This document shows, one piece after another, positions 37,642 through 54,335 of a stretch of 64,000 nucleotides of DNA (the stretch's first letter is position 1; each line of letters begins with the position of its first letter). The notes below the pieces were generated by a model. The model searched no databases. It was not told the origin of the DNA and saw only the letters and a list, made by a program, of their open reading frames with translations. The translations under genes and the position numbers were made by a program. The stretch is from Desulfovibrio intestinalis (GTDB lineage: Bacteria > Desulfobacterota > Desulfovibrionia > Desulfovibrionales > Desulfovibrionaceae), in contig NZ_JACHGO010000007.1 in assembly GCF_014202345.1 (NCBI RefSeq), forward strand, positions 1 to 64,000, in the 5' to 3' direction.

Positions 37642-39228
37642 CTATTTGCCCTTCTTACCCCTGCCGGATGCTGGCAGCAGGCGTACGGCGCGCACTTCAT
37701 CGATGCGCCGCTTGTCCATACGGGTAATTTCCAGCTCCCATCCCTGATAATGCAGGCGTTCGCCCTTTTCAGGTATGCGGCCAAGCCTCTCCAGAATGAA
37801 TCCGGCCAGCGTGGCGCTGTCGAGACGTTTGGGCAGGCTGATGCCGAGCCAGCTTGCAAAAAGATCCACTGTGAGCCGCCCCGGCATGACCCAGCTGCCG
37901 TCAGGACGGCGACAGGCTTCCGGCCCGGCGGGCATATCGCCCATCTGCCCGGCCAGCACGCTCAAAAGTTCCGCCGGGGTGATTATGCCTACCACGCTGC
38001 CGTATTCATCACGCACAAAGGCCAACGGCGTGGGGTGCGTGCGAAAATCTTCCATAATCACAGGCAGGGGCGTATGCTCAAAGATTGTGGGCGCGGGCCG
38101 AATGAAGTTTTTCAGCTCCCATTTTTCCGTGTGGTGCTCGTCCTCACGCATAAGGATGTCGCCGGGGTGCACTACCCCAAGCACTTCATCGGTATCGCGC
38201 CGCAGCACGGGCAGCCACGCCAGACGCGACGCCGCCGCATGCCGGCTCACCGTATCCCGGTCGGCATTACTGTCCAGCCAGTTTACACGCTGGCGCGGCA
38301 CCATGATGAACCGGGCGGTGCGCCCGCCAAGGCGGATAACACGGGCAAGCATGGCCCGTTCTTCTGGCGCGAACAACAGTTCTTTGGTTTCACCTGCCAG
38401 GGCGGCCGCGTCGAGTTGGGTATCGCCCTGCCCGGGTGCACTGCCTCCCAGAATATTCAGAATCACGCGGGCTGTGGATTCACGCATGTCACGCATGCTG
38501 AAACGCCTGCGCCGATTGCGCAGCGCCCACTGATTGCACATCTCCACCAACAGGGAAAAGACAATGGCCGCGTACATGTAGCCCTTGGGAATATGGAAGC
38601 CCAGACCATCGGCCAGCAGACTCAGGCCGATCATGAGCAAAAATCCCAGACACAGCACAATGACCGTGGGGTGACGCTCCATAAAGCCAAGCAGCGGCCC
38701 GGCGGCCATGACCATAATACCCATGGCGATAACCACCGCCAGCATCATGATGGAAACATGTTCCACCATACCCACTGCCGTGATGATGGAGTCCAGCGAG
38801 AACACTGCGTCCAGCACCACCACCTGGAAAATTACCTGCCAAAATCCGACATGGTGTTCGGTCTCTCCGGCGTATCTGCCGCTGTGGCCTTCAAGCCGGT
38901 CATGCAACTCCATCGTGCCCTTGAGCAGCAGAAAGACACCCCCCGCCATTAGAATGAGGTCACGCGCTGAAAAGCCGTGTCCTCCAAGCTCAAACAGAGG
39001 TGTTGTCAGCGTGGCCAGACGGGCCATGACGGTAAGCAGCGCCATACGCATGAGCAAAGCCAGCCCAAGCCCAACCAAAAAGGCCTGACGCTTGCGGTCG
39101 CCGGGCAGCCTTCCCACAAGAATGGAAATGAAGACCAGGTTGTCCACCCCAAGCACAACTTCCAGCAGTACCAGAGTGCCCAGACCAGCCCAGGCAGAGA
39201 GATGCGTAACCCATGAAAAATCCAGCAT
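37642..39228 (-). CDS. TerC-family membrane protein fused to CBS and CorC domains
   Basis: About 528 residues from ATG 39228 (MLDFSWVTHLSAWAGLGTLV). The N-terminal half is a TerC domain with LVLLEVVLGVDNLVFISILV and VVVLDAVFSLDSIITAVGMV, whose Asp-containing helices are the family mark; TerC proteins are linked to metal-ion export. A CBS pair follows (LGVVHPGDIL; VRDEYGSVVGIITPAELL), then a C-terminal CorC/HlyC-type domain (WVMPGRLTVDLFASWLGI). This YoaE/YegH-like architecture is known. Substrate unknown. Confidence 0.9.
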   Translation of the reverse strand: MLDFSWVTHLSAWAGLGTLVLLEVVLGVDNLVFISILVGRLPGDRKRQAFLVGLGLALLMRMALLTVMARLATLTTPLFELGGHGFSARDLILMAGGVFLLLKGTMELHDRLEGHSGRYAGETEHHVGFWQVIFQVVVLDAVFSLDSIITAVGMVEHVSIMMLAVVIAMGIMVMAAGPLLGFMERHPTVIVLCLGFLLMIGLSLLADGLGFHIPKGYMYAAIVFSLLVEMCNQWALRNRRRRFSMRDMRESTARVILNILGGSAPGQGDTQLDAAALAGETKELLFAPEERAMLARVIRLGGRTARFIMVPRQRVNWLDSNADRDTVSRHAAASRLAWLPVLRRDTDEVLGVVHPGDILMREDEHHTEKWELKNFIRPAPTIFEHTPLPVIMEDFRTHPTPLAFVRDEYGSVVGIITPAELLSVLAGQMGDMPAGPEACRRPDGSWVMPGRLTVDLFASWLGISLPKRLDSATLAGFILERLGRIPEKGERLHYQGWELEITRMDKRRIDEVRAVRLLPASGRGKKGK

Positions 39229-39296
39229 ACAATTATGCTCCGGGGCTGTGCCCCTTCTTGTGAAACAGACTTCTGCCGAAAATGCCGGCCTGCCCT

Positions 39297-39336
39297 GAAA
39301 AAAAGACAAAAGAGGGCCGAAGCCCCCTTTTGTCAG
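39297..39336 (-). terminator. intrinsic terminator of the rpsB-tsf operon
   Basis: On the minus strand GACAAAAGGGGGC, a TTCG loop and GCCCTCTTTTGTC are followed by a run of about seven T. Confidence 0.92.
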
Positions 39337-45028: not shown

Positions 45029-47170
45029 ATGTCCGCCAGCTCTTTCGGCTACCCACTCATCGACCTGATCGACAGACTCAGCGCGCAGCCGGTCTGCATC
45101 GCCGTCAGGCGTGGGCTGATTATTGTTCTGCCGCTCGTTCTTGTGGGCGCGTTCATGATAATGCTGGCAAACATCCCCTACGAACCCGCCCAACTGGCCA
45201 TTGACCGCGCGCTTGGCCCCACATGGCGGCAGGTTTGTAAAAATCTCATTGACGGCACATTCTCCATCGCCTCTCTGGCCCTGCTGTGCGCCATAGGCGG
45301 AGTAAGCGCCGCACATGCCAATCAGAAAAGGCAGACGCCATACGTCAGCCCAATAATGATGGCCACAGTGACGCTTTCATGCTTTTTCGTGCTAATCGCC
45401 CCGCTCAAATCCGGTATTGGCGATACGGCTTTTTCACTAAGCAGCGGCCTGTTGCTTGCCATGTGCATTGCTCTGGCTACCAGCAGTATTTTTCTGCGCC
45501 TGTCGCGCTGTTCATGGCTGCACCTGCCTGTGGAAATGGCCGGAAATGACCCGGTGGCCCGCGACGTTTTCACGCTCATCCCCGCGTCCATCATCACTAT
45601 TCTTTTTTTTGGGCTCATTCGCGCGGCGCTTGTGGCCCTGGACATGGCCAACCTGCACGAACTGTCCGAACGCATTCTTGTCCACCCCTTTTCCAAGGGC
45701 GGCGACAGTCTTGGATTTGGCGTGCTCTACAGCATGGCCTCGCAGGTGCTCTGGTTTTTCGGCGCGCACGGGCCCAACATGCTTTTTGCGGTGGAGAACG
45801 ACATTCTCATTCCCGCCGCACTGACCAATATGAACGCCATTGCCAGCGGCACGGCGCCTCCTTTCATTTTCACCAAAATGTTCTTTGACGCGTATACCCG
45901 CATGGGTGGCTCGGGCTGCACACTGGCTTTGTGTCTGGCCATTTTTCTTCGCGGCAAAGACCGCGGCGTCAAAAAGCTGTGCCTGTTCGCCCTGCTGCCC
46001 ACACTGTGCAACGTCAACGAACCTCTGCTGTTCGGCATCCCCCTTGTGCTGAACCCTGTGTACTTTATTCCCTTTATCCTGGTCCCCGCTGTACAGACGG
46101 TCATCGCCTATACGGCCACGGTTACCGGCTTCATTCCCCCAACTTCGACAGACATTGCCTGGACCACGCCCGCGCTCATGAGCGGCTACATTGTCTCGGG
46201 TTCAATCAACGGCCCCATACTTCAGGCAGTGAATCTGCTTGTGGGCCTGCTGATCTATATGCCTTTTGTCGTCATTTCCGATGCCATTCGCGAAAAGCGG
46301 AGCAAACAGGTCATGCAGAATCTGTTTACAGCAGCCAACGGCGGCGGCGTGTCAGACAACCGCAAGTGCCTGGGGCAACCCGGCGAGGTCGGACGGCTTG
46401 CCAATGCTTTGGCAGGAGATCTGACCCGCGCCCTTGATGAACCGGGGCAAATCTATCTGGTGTACCAGCCCCAGTTCAACAACGAGACTGGGCGCGTCAC
46501 TGGCGTGGAAGCCCTGCTGCGCTGGAACCACCCGGCCTACGGCAACATTGCGCCGCCCATAACGGTGGCTCTGGCGGAAGATACGGGCAACATAGACCGC
46601 CTTGGCCGGTTTGTTCTGGAAGAAGCGTGCAGGCGCAGAGCTGCCTGGAGTGGCTTTGTGGACGCTGACATGATTATGTGCATCAACGTCTCGCCCGTGC
46701 AGTTGCAGAATCCGAAATTTTCTGGCTATGTGTGGAACGCGCTCAGTGATGCGAGCCTGAAACCCGGGCAGCTTGAACTGGAAATTACCGAGTCTTCAAT
46801 GATCAAGCCAGAATCAAGCGCTCTGGAAATGCTCAGAAGCCTGCACACCGACGGAATCAGGGTTGCCATTGACGATTTCGGCATGGGGTACGCCTCACTG
46901 CGCTACCTGCGGGCCTTTCCCGTCAGCACGGTCAAGATTGACCGCTCCCTGACGGAACACATCGACAACAATATCAACCAGCAGATCGTGCGCAGCGTGC
47001 TCGAGTTGAATCAAAGTCTGGGCATCAGCACCGTGGTGGAAGGCGTTGAAAACCGGAAACAGCTCAACTCTTTCACTTCGATGGGTTTTTCTACCTTTCA
47101 GGGATATTTTTTCAGCCGCCCCCTGTGCGCCAAAGCTTGCCTTGCGTATATCAACGCCAACCGGGGCTAA
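45029..47170 (+). CDS. PTS EIIC (lactose/cellobiose type) fused to an EAL c-di-GMP phosphodiesterase
   Basis: A 713-residue fusion. Residues ~20-425 form a polytopic PTS permease domain of the cellobiose/diacetylchitobiose family: FFGAHGPN (His247) and NVNEPLLFGIPLVLNP (Glu331) match the sugar-site His and Glu of ChbC, at nearly the same numbers. Residues ~455-705 are an EAL domain with GVEALLR (Glu494), CINVSP (Asn553), LELEITES (Glu585), IDDFGMGYASL (Asp615/616), VKIDRS (Lys636), EGVEN (Glu671) and QGYFFSRPL. All catalytic positions look intact. No EIIA/EIIB gene is nearby, so the permease half may act as a sugar sensor. Confidence 0.9.
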   Translation: MSASSFGYPLIDLIDRLSAQPVCIAVRRGLIIVLPLVLVGAFMIMLANIPYEPAQLAIDRALGPTWRQVCKNLIDGTFSIASLALLCAIGGVSAAHANQKRQTPYVSPIMMATVTLSCFFVLIAPLKSGIGDTAFSLSSGLLLAMCIALATSSIFLRLSRCSWLHLPVEMAGNDPVARDVFTLIPASIITILFFGLIRAALVALDMANLHELSERILVHPFSKGGDSLGFGVLYSMASQVLWFFGAHGPNMLFAVENDILIPAALTNMNAIASGTAPPFIFTKMFFDAYTRMGGSGCTLALCLAIFLRGKDRGVKKLCLFALLPTLCNVNEPLLFGIPLVLNPVYFIPFILVPAVQTVIAYTATVTGFIPPTSTDIAWTTPALMSGYIVSGSINGPILQAVNLLVGLLIYMPFVVISDAIREKRSKQVMQNLFTAANGGGVSDNRKCLGQPGEVGRLANALAGDLTRALDEPGQIYLVYQPQFNNETGRVTGVEALLRWNHPAYGNIAPPITVALAEDTGNIDRLGRFVLEEACRRRAAWSGFVDADMIMCINVSPVQLQNPKFSGYVWNALSDASLKPGQLELEITESSMIKPESSALEMLRSLHTDGIRVAIDDFGMGYASLRYLRAFPVSTVKIDRSLTEHIDNNINQQIVRSVLELNQSLGISTVVEGVENRKQLNSFTSMGFSTFQGYFFSRPLCAKACLAYINANRG

Positions 47171-47481: not shown

Positions 47482-48321
47482 ATGCCTGAAGCAACAACCT
47501 CCTCCTCTTTCACAGCAGCGCCAGCCACATCAAGCAATGCTGACGGGCATCCCCTTGCGGGACGCATCGCCGCTCCATCCTTTGTGATTCCCGCCAATGT
47601 CGCTCAAAATGCCCATTTTCTATCGGGCAAGGTGGACGAGGTAGGTCTGTGCCTTTTTGAAGCGCAAGGCTGCCTGGACTATGGCCCCGCAGATCTGCCA
47701 GACGCCCTTGCCCGCCTGCCCTTGCGCTGGCACGCCCATCTCCCTGTGGATCTGCCCTGGCCCGCGCGTCTGGCCGCAGACAATACGCATCCGGCCCGTG
47801 ATGCCGCCCGGCTGGCACTGGCTGTACTGGACAGGATCCGCACCCTTGTTCCGCACATGATCTTGCAGGCGGCTGTTCTGCATCCGCCAGAAGGATCTGC
47901 TGCTTTTCAGCGCCGTATGCTGACAGATTTTGCAAAGCACTGGCATGGGCAACAGCAGCCCGCACCGCCCCTTTTACTGGAAAATGTGGCACACAGCGAC
48001 GTTATTTGCTTGGGAGACGCTTTCCTCGCAGATCACGGCATGGGCCTTTGTCTGGACGTAGGACATCTCCTGGGCTATGGTCAATCTGCTCTGTTGCATT
48101 CCGCCCTGCCCAGTCAGGCCGCCATGTTGCATTGGAGCGCTCCGGGCAATAGTGACCAGCATCTGCCGCTTACGGCTCTTACGCCCGCGCAACACTGCAC
48201 TGCCCTGCGCCTTATGGCTGACGCGCCTCCTACCGCGACCCATATGGTGGAGATTTTCAACTGGGACGGCCTTGCGGCATCACTGCCCGTTTTGGCTGCC
48301 CTTGCCAACGAGTCACAGTAA
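47482..48321 (+). CDS. cbiR: CbiR-like cobamide-remodelling phosphodiesterase
   Basis: A TIM-barrel protein of the AP-endonuclease-2/xylose isomerase fold. The N-terminal PSFVIPANVAQNAHFLSGKV followed by DEVGLCLFE resembles CbiR, which cleaves the nucleotide loop of cobamides so the lower ligand can be exchanged. Putative metal residues occur in LLLENV, LCLDVGHLLGY, MLHWSAPG and MVEIFNWDG. About 279 residues. The ribosome site is weak and no cobalamin riboswitch is visible. It precedes the DHH gene by 77 bases. Identification is by pattern memory. Confidence 0.7.
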   Translation: MPEATTSSSFTAAPATSSNADGHPLAGRIAAPSFVIPANVAQNAHFLSGKVDEVGLCLFEAQGCLDYGPADLPDALARLPLRWHAHLPVDLPWPARLAADNTHPARDAARLALAVLDRIRTLVPHMILQAAVLHPPEGSAAFQRRMLTDFAKHWHGQQQPAPPLLLENVAHSDVICLGDAFLADHGMGLCLDVGHLLGYGQSALLHSALPSQAAMLHWSAPGNSDQHLPLTALTPAQHCTALRLMADAPPTATHMVEIFNWDGLAASLPVLAALANESQ

Positions 48322-48398: not shown

Positions 48399-49484
48399 AT
48401 GACCACAGCAATGCTGCCCAATGCCGAACTTGTTGCCCACATGAAGGAGTGGCGACAGAATCTGGACAAGGATGACCGCTGGTGCATTCTCATCAACGCG
48501 GACCCTGACGCTCTGGCTTCGGCTATGGCCCTCAGGCGTATCATTTTGCCGCGCGTACACAATGCCGATATCGCCCGAGTCAATGAAGTGACCCGGCCCG
48601 ACAATCTGGCCATGATACGCTACCTGCGCATCCCCGTGCGCGCATGGCAACCCGAAAAGGCCGAACAATATACCCGTTTTGCCATGGTGGATTCGCAACC
48701 GCACCACCACAAGGCCTTTCAGGGCATTGCCTTTGACTGCATCATCGACCACCACCCCCTGCCGCCCAATGGGGGCTGCTTTATACCCTCTGCGCCGTCC
48801 CTTTGCGACATACGCCCGGGGCTTGGTGCAACTAGCACCATTATGACACGGTATTTTCAGGCGCTGCGCATGCGGCCCAGCCCCAGGCTGGCCACGGCCC
48901 TGCTGTACGGCATCCGCACGGATACCGCCGCCTTCGAGCGCTCCGGCGATGAAGACGACTTTCGCGCCTATCAATGGCTTTCGCGCCATGCAGACAACAG
49001 CCTGCTGCGCCGTATCATCCGCAGCGAGTATCTGCGTGAATGGCTGCCGCTGTTCTCACGCGCCTTCCGCAACCTTACAGACTGCCGCAGCAACGGAGCT
49101 TTTGCATGGCTCAACGAGGTCAACAGTGCCGACCTGCTGGTGGCTGTGGCCGACTTCTTCACGCGGGTGCACGACCTCAAGTGGATTGCAGTTGGCGGCA
49201 TTGTGGGCAAGACCGTCATTGTTATCTTTCGCGGTGACGGCGGAAGAGACATCGGACGTCTGGCCGATGCCTGTTTTTACGATGTGGGACAGGCCGGAGG
49301 CCACCGTAATCTGGGCCGGGCGGAATTTCCCCTTGAAGCCGTACCAGCCGATATGCGCCCCGGCGATTTTGTGCTCAAGCGGCTTGAAACCCGCAAACTG
49401 CGCCCTCAAAGCACGCCCAATGACACCGCGCCAGCTCAGGGGCAACCGGCCGCCAAGGCCAAACCAGAAAGTAATGGCAAGTAA
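48399..49484 (+). CDS. DHH-family phosphoesterase
   Basis: A RecJ/NrnA-like phosphoesterase. The DHH motif is IIDHHPLPP; ILINADPDALASAMAL and FAMVDSQP carry further metal Asp residues, and ATSTIMTRYF is the following helix. The C-terminal DHHA1 portion includes VGGIVGKTVIVIFRGDGGRD. It may degrade short RNAs or a nucleotide signal; the substrate is not evident. GGAGG abuts the ATG at 48399, so ATG 48411 is an alternative start. About 361 residues with a low-complexity tail. Confidence 0.82.
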   Translation: MTTAMLPNAELVAHMKEWRQNLDKDDRWCILINADPDALASAMALRRIILPRVHNADIARVNEVTRPDNLAMIRYLRIPVRAWQPEKAEQYTRFAMVDSQPHHHKAFQGIAFDCIIDHHPLPPNGGCFIPSAPSLCDIRPGLGATSTIMTRYFQALRMRPSPRLATALLYGIRTDTAAFERSGDEDDFRAYQWLSRHADNSLLRRIIRSEYLREWLPLFSRAFRNLTDCRSNGAFAWLNEVNSADLLVAVADFFTRVHDLKWIAVGGIVGKTVIVIFRGDGGRDIGRLADACFYDVGQAGGHRNLGRAEFPLEAVPADMRPGDFVLKRLETRKLRPQSTPNDTAPAQGQPAAKAKPESNGK

Positions 49485-49860: not shown

Positions 49861-50658
49861 ATGTACCTTGGCAAAAAAGTCCGTCTGGAACGCATTATCA
49901 ATCGTGAGAACGGGCGCACCATTATTGTACCTATGGATCACGGCGTTACCATCGGCGCTGTCGACGGTCTTGTAGACATGCGCGAAGCCGTCAACGACAT
50001 GGCCACAGGCGGCGCGGATGCCGTGCTCATGCACAAGGGCCTTGTTCGCTGCTCCCACCGCAGCGCCGGCAAGGACATCGGCCTAATCGTTCATCTTTCC
50101 GCCTCCACAGCCTTGACGCCCAACGGCAATACCAAAACACTGGTGGGCACGGTAGAAGAAGGCATCAAACACGGCGCAGACTGCGTTTCTGTTCACGTCA
50201 ATCTTGGCGACCCCAACGAGCGCCTCATGCTGGCCGACCTGGGCCGGGTGGCCGAAGCTTGCGACAACTGGCATATTCCCCTGTTGGCCATGATGTACGC
50301 CCGTGGCCCGCAGATCAAAAACGGCTTTGATAAAGATGTGGTGGCCCACTGTGCCCGCGTAGGCGTGGAACTGGGCGCAGACATCGTCAAAGTTCCTTAC
50401 ACAGGCGATGTAGACAGCTTCTCTGAAGTGGTTTCCTCCTGCTGCGTACCCGTGGTTATCGCTGGTGGCGAACGTATGGAATCCACCCGCCAGATCCTCC
50501 AGATGGTTGCTGACTCCGTCAAAGCGGGCGGTGCGGGCATTTCCGTGGGCCGCAACGTGTTCCAGCATCCCAACCGTGTTGCCCTGGTCAAGGCGCTTCG
50601 TGCCATCGTGCACGAAAATGCTTCCGTCAGTCAGGCCATGACCATTGTGGGGGAATAA
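49861..50658 (+). CDS. 2-amino-3,7-dideoxy-D-threo-hept-6-ulosonate synthase (AroA'-type)
   Basis: First enzyme of the archaeal-type route to dehydroquinate, which condenses a deoxy-ketohexose phosphate with aspartate semialdehyde. It belongs to the DhnA/class I aldolase family; IIVPMDHGVTIG, GADAVLMHKG, LLAMMYARGP, GADIVKVPYTGD and VVIAGGERM are conserved, with the Schiff-base Lys in IVKVPY. About 265 residues. It is the first structural gene after the attenuator. Ribosome site GGAG. Desulfovibrio vulgaris is known to use this route. Confidence 0.9.
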   Translation: MYLGKKVRLERIINRENGRTIIVPMDHGVTIGAVDGLVDMREAVNDMATGGADAVLMHKGLVRCSHRSAGKDIGLIVHLSASTALTPNGNTKTLVGTVEEGIKHGADCVSVHVNLGDPNERLMLADLGRVAEACDNWHIPLLAMMYARGPQIKNGFDKDVVAHCARVGVELGADIVKVPYTGDVDSFSEVVSSCCVPVVIAGGERMESTRQILQMVADSVKAGGAGISVGRNVFQHPNRVALVKALRAIVHENASVSQAMTIVGE

Positions 50659-50660
50659 AC

Positions 50661-51644
50661 ATGTCGCGCATTTACTTCAACTGCATGCCCTTCGATAAGG
50701 AAGACGTAACTCTGGCTCTTGAGTCTGGCGTGGACGGCGTTATTGTTCCCGCCGCACAGGTTGAGCATGTGGCTGGTCTTTCGCGCTGCGCCGTGTGGGC
50801 CGCTGAAGAAACGCCCCTGGCCGAGCTTAATGCCAAGGCTGATGAAGAAGCCGTACTGCAAAGGCTGCTTGCCGGAGAGCGCGTGGTGCTGGCTCGCGGC
50901 TGGGAGGTAATACCTGTAGAAAACCTTCTGGCCCAGAGCGACAGTGTGCTGGCTGAGGCTGGCACTCTGGACGAGGCCCGCCTTGCCGCAGGAATTTTGG
51001 AACGCGGTGTGGCGGGCATTGTTGTATCTAGAGAGGGCATCTCAGACCTCAAGGACATCGTAGCCCAGTGCAAGAGGATTCTTCCCCGCGAAGAACTGCT
51101 GCCCGGCGTGGTCACCCGCGTGGAACCAGTGGGCCTGGGGCATCGCGTATGCGCCGACACCCTTTCGCTGCTGCGCAAGGGCCAGGGCATGCTGGTGGGC
51201 AATTCCAGCGCGTTCACCTTCCTTGTGCATGCAGAAACCGAGCGCAATGAATATGTGGCAGCACGCCCCTTCAGGGTCAATGCCGGGGCCGTGCATGCCT
51301 ATGTACGCCTGCCTGAAGACCAGACCACCTACCTTGGCGAATTCAAGGCCGGACAGGAAGTGCTTATTGTGGACTACACCGGCGAAACCAGCGTGGCCAC
51401 CCTTGGCAGGGTCAAAATTGAAGTTCGGCCCATGCTGCTGGTGGAAGCCCAGGTGCAGACCGAAGACGGCGTAAAAACCGGAGCTGTTTTTCTGCAAAAC
51501 GCAGAGACCATCCGCCTGACTACGCCCGAGGGAGAAGCCATAAGCGTTGTGAGCCTCAAAGTCGGCGACCGCGTTCTTTGCCGCCTGGATGAAGCAGGCC
51601 GCCATTTCGGCATGCGCGTGCGCGAAGACATCCGGGAGGTATAG
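50661..51644 (+). CDS. 3-dehydroquinate synthase II (AroB'-type)
   Basis: NAD-dependent oxidative deamination and cyclisation of the ADH product to 3-dehydroquinate. The segments GILERGVAGIVVS, ETERNEYVAARPFRVNAGAV and YLGEFKAGQEVLIVDYTGET match the archaeal DHQ synthase II family, not the common AroB. About 327 residues. It starts two bases after the previous stop. Confidence 0.92.
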   Translation: MSRIYFNCMPFDKEDVTLALESGVDGVIVPAAQVEHVAGLSRCAVWAAEETPLAELNAKADEEAVLQRLLAGERVVLARGWEVIPVENLLAQSDSVLAEAGTLDEARLAAGILERGVAGIVVSREGISDLKDIVAQCKRILPREELLPGVVTRVEPVGLGHRVCADTLSLLRKGQGMLVGNSSAFTFLVHAETERNEYVAARPFRVNAGAVHAYVRLPEDQTTYLGEFKAGQEVLIVDYTGETSVATLGRVKIEVRPMLLVEAQVQTEDGVKTGAVFLQNAETIRLTTPEGEAISVVSLKVGDRVLCRLDEAGRHFGMRVREDIREV

Positions 51645-51645
51645 T

Positions 51646-52875
51646 ATGGACGGCAGCAACAGCCACTGGCCCGGTTCCGCCCCTCTGCCGGGGGCGGAAG
51701 AACAGACCCACAATGCTGACGAGCGTCTTTCGGCCATCCGCACTGAAATCGACTCTGTCGATCAGGAACTGCTGGATCTTTTCAACCGCCGTGCTTCGCT
51801 CAGCCGAGAGGTGGGACACATCAAGGCCGATGTGCCGGGCATCATCTTCAAGCCCGTGCGTGAAAAGGAAGTGCTGGACAGCCTGGCCGCCCGCAATCCC
51901 GGCCCTTTGCCAGAGGATCATCTGCGGGCCATCTGGCGCGAGATATTTTCTTCGTCACGCGCCCTGCAACGCCCGCAAAACGTCGCCTACCTTGGACCGG
52001 AAGGCACATTTTCCTACTTTGCCGGGGTGGAATATCTGGGGCATGCGGCCACTTTTCACCCCTGTAACGATCTGGTGCAGGTGTTTGAAGAAGTGTCTTC
52101 GGGGCGTTGCGAACTGGGGGTTGTTCCTCTGGAAAACTCTCTGCAAGGAACCGTTGGCGTCAGCTTTGACCTTTTTCTCAAGCACGATGTTTTTATTCAG
52201 GCAGAGCTTTTTTCGCGTATTTCTCACTGCCTTTTGAGCAATGTGCCTTCCCTGGCCGCCGTGCGCACCGTGTATTCGCACCCCCAGCCTCTGGCCCAGT
52301 GTGGCGGCTGGCTGCGCACCCATTTGCCCAATGCGGGACTGGTGCCGGTAGAATCTACCGCCGCTGCCGCCCAACGGGCCGCGCAGGGGCCAGACCAGGG
52401 ACATACCGCCGCCATCGGCCACGGCAAGCTGGCCGATCTTATGGGCCTTGGCATTCTTGCCAGCCGCATTGAGGACGAGCCCGGCAACTGGACGCGCTTT
52501 GTCATCATCGGCCCCAAGGTCAGCGGCGGGCAGGGCGGCAACAAGGTGCAGAATCCCCAGCCCGGCCATACCGGGGCAGACAAAACATCGCTGCTTTTCA
52601 CCCTGCCCGACAAAGCAGGAGCGCTTTCGCATGTGCTGGATCTGCTGGCGACGCACGGCATAAACATGCGCAAGCTGGAATCGCGCCCCCTGCGCGGCCA
52701 GTGCTGGAAGTATGTTTTCTTTGCCGATGTGGAAAGTGACCTCGAAGATCCCCGCTATGCCGATTTGCTGACAGCTCTGCACGAGACCTGTACCAGTTTT
52801 CGCATTTTGGGCAGCTACCCTATGGGGCCGCAGCTGGACCGCCTTGACCTTCACACGGATGAATCGGAGCAGTAA
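51646..52875 (+). CDS. pheA: bifunctional chorismate mutase/prephenate dehydratase
   Basis: Converts chorismate to prephenate and then phenylpyruvate. An N-terminal AroQ-type mutase (LSAIRTEIDSVDQELLDLFN, with RASLSREVGHIK) precedes a dehydratase domain (VAYLGPEGTFSYFA, GVVPLENSLQGTVG, NWTRFVIIG) and an ACT domain for Phe feedback (SLLFTLPDKAGALSHVLDLL, with the ESRP motif in KLESRPLRG). About 409 residues. GGGAGG precedes ATG 51646. Confidence 0.95.
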   Translation: MDGSNSHWPGSAPLPGAEEQTHNADERLSAIRTEIDSVDQELLDLFNRRASLSREVGHIKADVPGIIFKPVREKEVLDSLAARNPGPLPEDHLRAIWREIFSSSRALQRPQNVAYLGPEGTFSYFAGVEYLGHAATFHPCNDLVQVFEEVSSGRCELGVVPLENSLQGTVGVSFDLFLKHDVFIQAELFSRISHCLLSNVPSLAAVRTVYSHPQPLAQCGGWLRTHLPNAGLVPVESTAAAAQRAAQGPDQGHTAAIGHGKLADLMGLGILASRIEDEPGNWTRFVIIGPKVSGGQGGNKVQNPQPGHTGADKTSLLFTLPDKAGALSHVLDLLATHGINMRKLESRPLRGQCWKYVFFADVESDLEDPRYADLLTALHETCTSFRILGSYPMGPQLDRLDLHTDESEQ

Positions 52876-52880
52876 GAATC

Positions 52881-54335
52881 ATGAGCCAGACCAAGGACAC
52901 CGTGGCAGTCGCCAACAATGTGAGCGCTACAGGCGCAGTGGAAACTGTGGCAGTTACCGCCCCGGCTTCAAAGTCGGTTTCGCACCGCTATCTTATGGGC
53001 GCAGCCCTGGCCCACGGCACATCCATTGTGCGCCACACGCTTGAAAGCCGCGACCTGGAACGCACCCGTGCCATCCTTTGCGCGGCAGGCGCAACAATGG
53101 AAGAACTGCCCGAAAGCACCGCCTCTTCCGGGGCGTGGCGCGTTACGGGCATGAACGGCAGGCCTTCGGGCGGCACCGCCGCAGCACCCCTCTCCTGTGA
53201 CGTGGAGGAATCGGGCACCACCTGCCGCCTGCTTACGGCAGTACTGGCCGCCGGGCACGGGGTGTTTCGCATCCACGGCGCAGGGCGCATGCACGAGCGG
53301 CCCATTGCCGAGCTGACCAACGCTCTGGCCACACTGGGAACAAAAACCGCCTTTGAAGAAAAGCCGGACTGTCCGCCCTGTGTCATCACCGCCGACGGCC
53401 TTGACCCAGCGCTATGCAACGGCATGGTGGAACTGGGCATGGATATATCCAGCCAGTATTTTTCAGGCCTGCTGCTGGCCGCGCCTATGGGGCCAGCCCC
53501 CCTGACCCTCTCTCTGGGCGGGCAAAAGGCCGTGTCCTGGCCCTATGTTGGCCTGACGCTGCAATGCCTTACAGACTACGGCATCAAGTTTGAAGTGCAC
53601 ACCCGCCAGACCCCCGAGGCCCAGTGGAGCACACTGCCCGACGGCGCATGGCGTCAGCTTGCCGAGGCCCGGCCCGGCTGTTTGCGCGTCACCGTGCATC
53701 CCGGCCACTACCGCGCCGGAGAATACACGGTGGAAGGCGACTGGTCGGGCGCGTCCTACCTGCTGGCCGCTGGCGCTTTGGGCCGCCGCCCTGTACGTGT
53801 GGAGGGTCTGCGCGCCGACTCCCTGCAAGGCGACCGCGCCATGCTGGAAATTTTGCAAAAAATGGGAGCACAGGTACGCGTGGAGCCGCAGGCAGTCACG
53901 GTGTCTCCCTCCCGTCTGCACGGCGTGGAACTGGACATGGGGCACTGCCCCGACCTTGTGCCCACGGTAGCCATGCTGGCGGCCTTTGCCCAGGGTTCCA
54001 CGCGCATCCGCAATGTGGCCCACCTGCGCCACAAGGAATCTGACCGCATCAAGGCTCCGGCCATAGAACTTGCCAAAACTGGCGTTATTGTGGACGAACT
54101 TTCAGACGGCATGCTCATCAACGGTCTTGGCGGGCGCAACAATGGCAAGCCCAACCATCCCGTACTGCCGGAAGGGCAAAACCTGTCGTCCCACAACGAC
54201 CACCGTATCGCTATGTCGCTGGCTCTGCTGGACTTGTGCCAGCCCGAAGCCACAGTGCGTTCCCGGCTGGACGATCCCTCTGTGGTCAGCAAGTCATTTC
54301 CGCAGTTCTGGAATATATGGGAGAAGCTGGCATGA
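52881..54335 (+). CDS. aroA: 3-phosphoshikimate 1-carboxyvinyltransferase (EPSP synthase)
   Basis: Penultimate step to chorismate. Family patterns are APASKSVSHRYLMGAAL, EESGTTCRLLTAVLA, LGMDISSQYFSGLLLAAP, VEGDWSGASYLLAAGAL, LRHKESDRIKA and NDHRIAMSLALL. About 484 residues, with insertions such as a segment around residues 80-100. The place of the usual GNAGTA loop is taken by ESGTT, a divergent form. The stop overlaps the tyrA start (ATGA). Confidence 0.95.
   Translation: MSQTKDTVAVANNVSATGAVETVAVTAPASKSVSHRYLMGAALAHGTSIVRHTLESRDLERTRAILCAAGATMEELPESTASSGAWRVTGMNGRPSGGTAAAPLSCDVEESGTTCRLLTAVLAAGHGVFRIHGAGRMHERPIAELTNALATLGTKTAFEEKPDCPPCVITADGLDPALCNGMVELGMDISSQYFSGLLLAAPMGPAPLTLSLGGQKAVSWPYVGLTLQCLTDYGIKFEVHTRQTPEAQWSTLPDGAWRQLAEARPGCLRVTVHPGHYRAGEYTVEGDWSGASYLLAAGALGRRPVRVEGLRADSLQGDRAMLEILQKMGAQVRVEPQAVTVSPSRLHGVELDMGHCPDLVPTVAMLAAFAQGSTRIRNVAHLRHKESDRIKAPAIELAKTGVIVDELSDGMLINGLGGRNNGKPNHPVLPEGQNLSSHNDHRIAMSLALLDLCQPEATVRSRLDDPSVVSKSFPQFWNIWEKLA

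Follow-up and report, generated by a model that had tools for sequence, protein, structure and literature searches.

A sugar permease domain fused to a predicted c-di-GMP phosphodiesterase in Desulfovibrio intestinalis, a probable one-component membrane receptor

The window analyzed here, a 64-kb stretch of the Desulfovibrio intestinalis genome, encodes a protein in which an EIIC sugar permease domain is joined to an EAL domain, and EIIC-EAL proteins of this kind form a real, widespread and uncharacterized family of probable receptors. The fusion is probably a one-component membrane receptor, in which a disaccharide bound to the orphan EIIC would alter the breakdown of c-di-GMP by the EAL domain. 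Domain order, residues, missing lactose-type partners, conservation, linker and, for one branch, linkage to chitoporin-like genes were computed directly. What most c-di-GMP enzymes sense is unknown; in the present case a relative of the input domain has been solved and its sugar site is known, and therefore both ligand and coupling are directly testable. The family spans several phyla and includes Clostridioides difficile. If the receptor reading is true, it provides a sugar-binding case of a transporter put to use as a receptor, and EIIC-EAL proteins may connect fragments of chitin with attachment or motility.

Domain composition, sugar site and linker

The gene (Table 1) is a single ORF that encodes 713 residues without interruption. 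Pfam analysis reports a PTS_EIIC domain (PF02378, residues 27-353, E 3e-30, 105.6 bits against a cut-off of 30.7) followed by an EAL domain (E 1e-66). The NCBIfam model TIGR00410 places the EIIC half in the lactose/cellobiose-family IIC (252 bits, cut-off 236), while the score with the cellobiose-specific IIC equivalog TIGR00359 (252 bits) lies below the cut-off of that model (434). The closest solved relatives are ChbC (3qnq) for the EIIC half, with 29% identity, and the EAL domain of BifA (8arv, 1e-52); a profile built from the EIICs of the fusions matches 3qnq at 1.8e-109. PTS_EIIC and EAL are the only Pfam families matched in all 62 aligned fusion members.

Residues H247 and E331 align exactly with H250 and E334 of 3qnq, which we take to be sugar-site residues in the ChbC structure, and W242, N330 and W378 align with ChbC W245, N333 and W382, presumably part of the same site. 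Regarding the EAL half, the full site set is present (E494, N553, E585, D615, D616, K636, E671, E674 and Q691), from which a phosphodiesterase is predicted. The original prediction, a ChbC/CelB-like EIIC that retains His247 and Glu331 and is joined to an EAL domain with all its catalytic residues, is therefore borne out by these matches and alignments. It had also named the loss of these residues in all relatives as a point against it; they and the other sugar-site residues are kept in nearly all of the 92 fusions: W242 in 92, W378 and E331 in 91, H247 and N330 in 90 (position 247 is Asn in the other two), and each EAL catalytic residue in 90 to 92. The five sugar-site residues are thus 98-100% conserved, against a median of 27% for the columns of the EIIC half, of which H247 and E331 are the sole well-conserved His and Glu. 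Of the two patterns with which genome contigs were scanned for fusion loci, one included Glu331 and the second included the DDFG motif, which biases conservation at these positions in the loci so found; the unbiased figure is 15/15, from 15 proteins found independently of the patterns. Between close pairs, dN/dS is 0.08-0.24 for the EIIC half and 0.04-0.22 for the EAL half, values that point to purifying selection on both halves. A degenerate EIIC is ruled out by the retained sugar-site residues together with these low ratios.

The whole-protein AlphaFold2 model (Table 1), computed with 62 homologues as input, predicts that the last membrane helix is a single helix of 44 residues extending into the linker. 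The model of the EIIC half (residues 1-437, pLDDT 89.3) superposes on 3qnq with a Z-score of 26.7 (rmsd 10.5, 334 aligned residues), on the MalT structure 5iws with 16.2 (rmsd 5.1, 348 aligned) and on the MalT structure 6bvg with 8.3 (rmsd 7.9, 326 aligned). The window protein, as modeled, has the EIIC fold, and the large rmsd to 3qnq may reflect a different conformational state. The model of the EAL half superposes on 8arv with a Z-score of 33.3 (rmsd 1.8, 252 aligned). Across phyla, the distance from P412, where the last EIIC helix ends, to Q482, at the entry of the EAL domain, is 71.1 +/- 1.6 residues in 62 fusions. Such a near-fixed length is expected if the geometry of the linker matters for signaling.

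Table 1. Features of the EIIC-EAL gene in the window, and porin genes that follow fusion genes at other loci
Feature	Position or loci	Strand	Basis
EIIC-EAL fusion gene	45029..47170	+	ORF, domain matches, AlphaFold model (pLDDT 88.8, pTM 0.83)
EIIC domain, lactose/cellobiose/chitobiose family, residues 13-425	45065..46303	+	TIGR00410 over cut-off; match to 3qnq, E 1e-48
His247 codon (ChbC His250, sugar site)	45767..45769	+	alignment to 3qnq
Glu331 codon (ChbC Glu334, sugar site)	46019..46021	+	alignment to 3qnq
Last EIIC helix to cytoplasmic linker (predicted helices 394-437 and 452-470)	46208..46438	+	AlphaFold model, linker spacing
EAL phosphodiesterase domain (predicted), residues 464-698, complete catalytic set	46418..47122	+	Pfam, structure match, residues
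Chitoporin-like porin after fusion	L004, L050, L072, L074, L075, L077, L078, L079, L080	same as fusion	
Chitoporin-like porin after fusion, remainder of the 14	L081, L085, L091, L107, L123	same as fusion	

Relatives and the missing PTS partners

The same EIIC-EAL order is found in more than 90 relatives from at least 5 phyla. Counting the D. intestinalis genome in each case, 10 of the 79 genomes of the genus and 8 of the 395 genomes of the phylum return a match, always fused (frames of 727-802 residues in the phylum scan), and all eight lactose-family EIICs found in the 395 genomes are EAL fusions. The patchy presence within the genus counts against the receptor explanation. A scan of genome contigs yields at least 80 fusion loci, in Desulfovibrionaceae, Desulfobulbaceae, Chromatiaceae, Burkholderiaceae, Zoogloeaceae, alphaproteobacteria, Synergistaceae, Clostridia and Planctomycetota. 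Fusions also occur on plasmid records of Vibrio, Photobacterium, Pseudoalteromonas and Tritonibacter, where the annotated ones are labeled solely "EAL domain-containing protein". A frameshift or an assembly join between the halves, which would have undone the original prediction, is ruled out by the single frame and by the same one-frame fusion in independent assemblies. In trees, the sampled transporter EIICs (a small sample, 5 and then 9) are set apart from the fusions by a supported branch; this separation is compatible with a single origin of the fusion, and is not proof of it. The fusion at locus L071, titled as a Candidatus Wolfebacteria MAG, is almost identical in the tree to the Ralstonia pickettii fusion (L068), a sign that the contig may be mis-binned.

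The fusion is the sole PTS_EIIC detected by Pfam profile search in its genome (3.44 Mb, 99.97% complete), and the same genome returns no match to PTS_IIB (PF02302), lactose-type PTS_IIA (PF02255) or EIIA_2 (PF00359), partner domains whose searches matched in other genomes used as positive controls. A working lactose-type PTS permease requires a genome that also encodes its IIA and IIB, and neither, among the types searched, is found in this one. The absence of IIA, IIB and sugar hydrolase genes, originally noted for the vicinity, holds for the neighboring genes examined and, as regards lactose-type IIA and IIB, extends to the whole genome. HPr is present, beside EI and an apparent Man-type IID (the IID read by inspection), and the PTS of this genome therefore seems to belong to the Man family. 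The IIC of that family is unrelated to the lactose-type PTS_EIIC.

The pattern recurs among 40 carrier genomes: 38 have no lactose-type IIA, the two exceptions being Sporomusa ovata and C. difficile, and 29 have no PTS_IIB (PF02302); in the remaining carriers, Clostridia apart, most PTS_IIB matches lie inside long frames resembling fructose-type IIBC. Of nine Firmicutes carriers, six yield no lactose-family EIIC besides the fusion. When the loci of relatives were screened for nearby IIA or IIB genes, only the C. difficile locus L125 was positive, with a separate EIIC alongside. Hidden lactose-type partners were thus rejected, since the own genome has none and the C. difficile pair has its own EIIC. 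The EIIC half of the fusion is accordingly most likely a receptor and not a permease.

In the window, the next gene downstream (47482-48321, + strand) matches the cobamide remodeling phosphodiesterase CbiR, over the NCBIfam cut-off, and is followed by a DHH-family phosphoesterase weakly similar to manganese-dependent inorganic pyrophosphatases (48399-49484, +). Consecutive genes at 49861-54335 (+) encode a DeoC/LacD-type aldolase, 3-dehydroquinate synthase II, chorismate mutase-prephenate dehydratase and EPSP synthase; together they make up a cluster for aromatic amino acids in which the early steps are of the DHQS II type. On the other strand, 37642-39309 encodes a TerC membrane protein fused to CBS and CorC_HlyC domains. 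Rfam analysis reports no RNA element in the window, and a promoter-like match upstream of the fusion gene is at chance level. At other loci, a GGDEF gene lies upstream of the fusion, at 62 bases and in the same orientation in two Chromatiaceae (L055 and L057) and at 10 bases in L118; a GGDEF neighbor occurs beside only 5 of the 80 loci scanned and is hence not general.

Chitoporin-like neighbors and the candidate ligand

In one branch of the tree, comprising Zoogloeaceae and a second Desulfovibrionaceae group, a porin gene lies directly downstream of the fusion on the same strand in 14 of 16 cases (counted as tree rows of that branch), mostly about 24-135 bases away. The fusions at L050 and L091 are identical. 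Compared with solved structures, the porins reach 5e-78 and 8e-64 with chitoporins and no better than 1e-3 with other porins of the OprD type, while their match to the Pfam OprD family is modest. With the NCBIfam ChiP model they score 298-348 bits, below the equivalog cut-off of 750; they are therefore chitoporin-like, and do not qualify as ChiP under this model. Divergence of the porin parallels that of the fusion, down to about 41-46% identity, and the genes outside the pair look unrelated between loci. A planctomycete fusion also has a distant chitoporin-like neighbor (2e-15), divergently placed. This linkage of EIIC-EAL genes to chitoporin-like genes is a contribution of the present analysis.

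A ChbC-family EIIC accompanied by a porin of the chitoporin kind points to chitobiose, or a sugar like it, as the most reasonable candidate ligand for now in that branch. Regarding the window's own branch, the porin neighbors of the sister branch favor a chitobiose-type ligand by inferred carry-over, and the absence of any chitoporin-like gene from the 64 kb of the window counts against this ligand for the window protein. The conserved residues alone do not fix the ligand, and cellobiose and chitobiose are indistinguishable from the present evidence. The beta-linked disaccharide proposed originally is thus plausible and has indirect, contextual support from the other branch; for the window protein itself, it stands as a proposal.

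The receptor reading, its rivals and known systems

In the proposed mechanism, the EIIC of the lactose/cellobiose/chitobiose family, unserved by EIIA or EIIB, would bind in its retained His/Glu site a disaccharide, likely beta-linked, that has reached the periplasm. Occupancy of the site would move the EIIC transport domain, and this movement would be relayed via the long last helix and the fixed-length linker to the catalytically complete EAL domain, changing its rate of c-di-GMP hydrolysis. The cell has a c-di-GMP network for such an output to join, with 25 GGDEF domains in the genome and seven matches to the EAL half of the fusion, itself included. The receptor part of the original prediction is supported by the orphan EIIC, the retained sugar-site residues, purifying selection, the fixed linker and a lineage apart from the sampled transporters. 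Ligand binding and conformational coupling, as well as the sign of the response and the downstream behavior, are inferred. The phosphodiesterase activity and the part in biofilms and chemotaxis that were suggested originally are likewise predictions. More tentatively, and somewhat short of an even chance in our estimate, the family as a whole may be PTS-independent, a permease turned into a detector of chitin-derived disaccharides, which in one branch would form with its dedicated porin, the route across the outer membrane, a two-gene sensing unit, the sugar being neither taken up nor broken down by these genes.

Retained sugar-site residues would be expected of a transporter too, which counts against the receptor reading. 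With its fold and sugar site intact, the EIIC might admit the disaccharide unphosphorylated while the EAL domain reports occupancy or flux, and downhill movement of a substrate is possible in principle for elevator-type carriers. However, EIICs that are not coupled to a IIB generally carry sugar poorly, and no disaccharide hydrolase is found beside the genes checked, so that such a facilitator seems unlikely. If, instead, the EIIC were a mere membrane anchor or dimerization scaffold, the EAL domain would answer another cue; membrane domains of unknown function are frequent in EAL proteins, but the sugar-site residues belong to the most conserved columns while the other His and Glu residues are mostly unconserved, and we hold this to be quite improbable.

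Phosphotransfer would offer a further route, in which the EIIC would be the docking site for a IIB of other origin and phosphotransfer state would control the EAL domain. HPr and EI exist in this genome, a few carriers have a lactose-type IIA (S. ovata and C. difficile), and PMC8846402 treats PTS_EIIC in proteins of this kind as a phosphoreceiver domain. That remark fits poorly with genomes devoid of IIB, as are the present one and most of the carriers counted above, nearly all of which also want a lactose-type IIA; C. difficile apart, most IIB matches look fructose-type inside long frames, and the IIB and IIA genes of the C. difficile locus accompany their own EIIC. A PTS-coupled sensor is therefore very unlikely. 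The least probable alternative, to which we give hardly any weight, is an inactive EAL domain that only binds c-di-GMP, the fusion being then a c-di-GMP receptor and not an enzyme. Degenerate EAL proteins such as FimX and LapD do exist, but the catalytic residues are present in the fusion and in nearly all relatives, and the nearest structures are of the catalytic type.

Compared with known systems, the EIIC half of the proposed receptor resembles ChbC/CelB-type EIICs (TIGR00410, 3qnq) in fold, length and sugar-site residues, and differs from them in having no genomic IIA or IIB, in carrying a C-terminal EAL domain and in falling outside the sampled transporter group. The EAL half shares its fold and catalytic residues with membrane-bound EAL phosphodiesterases such as BifA (8arv) and with EAL enzymes such as DosP; unlike these, the fusion has a sugar permease fold as its input domain and no GGDEF within the protein. 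The PTS_EIIC+EAL architecture has already been catalogued in PMC8846402, where PTS_EIIC is called rare in c-di-GMP proteins and discussed as a phosphoreceiver; its passages on the subject offer no studied case of the fusion. The Pfam domain pair is the same, whereas the present evidence points to ligand binding without phosphotransfer. In the open literature, this source alone was found to name the pair, and no functional study of it was found. PMC8846402 also describes Vibrio cholerae EIIA-Glc and PdeS, in which sugars alter c-di-GMP breakdown via a PTS part; there, phosphorylated EIIA contacts a separate phosphodiesterase, whereas EIIC-EAL is a single protein in a genome with no EIIA of the types searched. 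The ammonium sensor kinase Ks-Amt5, a transporter fused to a kinase whose sensor role was shown by experiment (PMC5764959), likewise combines a transporter fold with a signaling output as a receptor, and the fusion too has a transporter domain joined to a signaling domain, with its own binding-site residues kept. The transporter family, the ligand and the output are different, and the coupling, experimental in Ks-Amt5, is predicted for EIIC-EAL. Membrane one-component c-di-GMP receptors are known as a kind, and what the present analysis contributes is evidence from across the family for a receptor role of an orphan permease.
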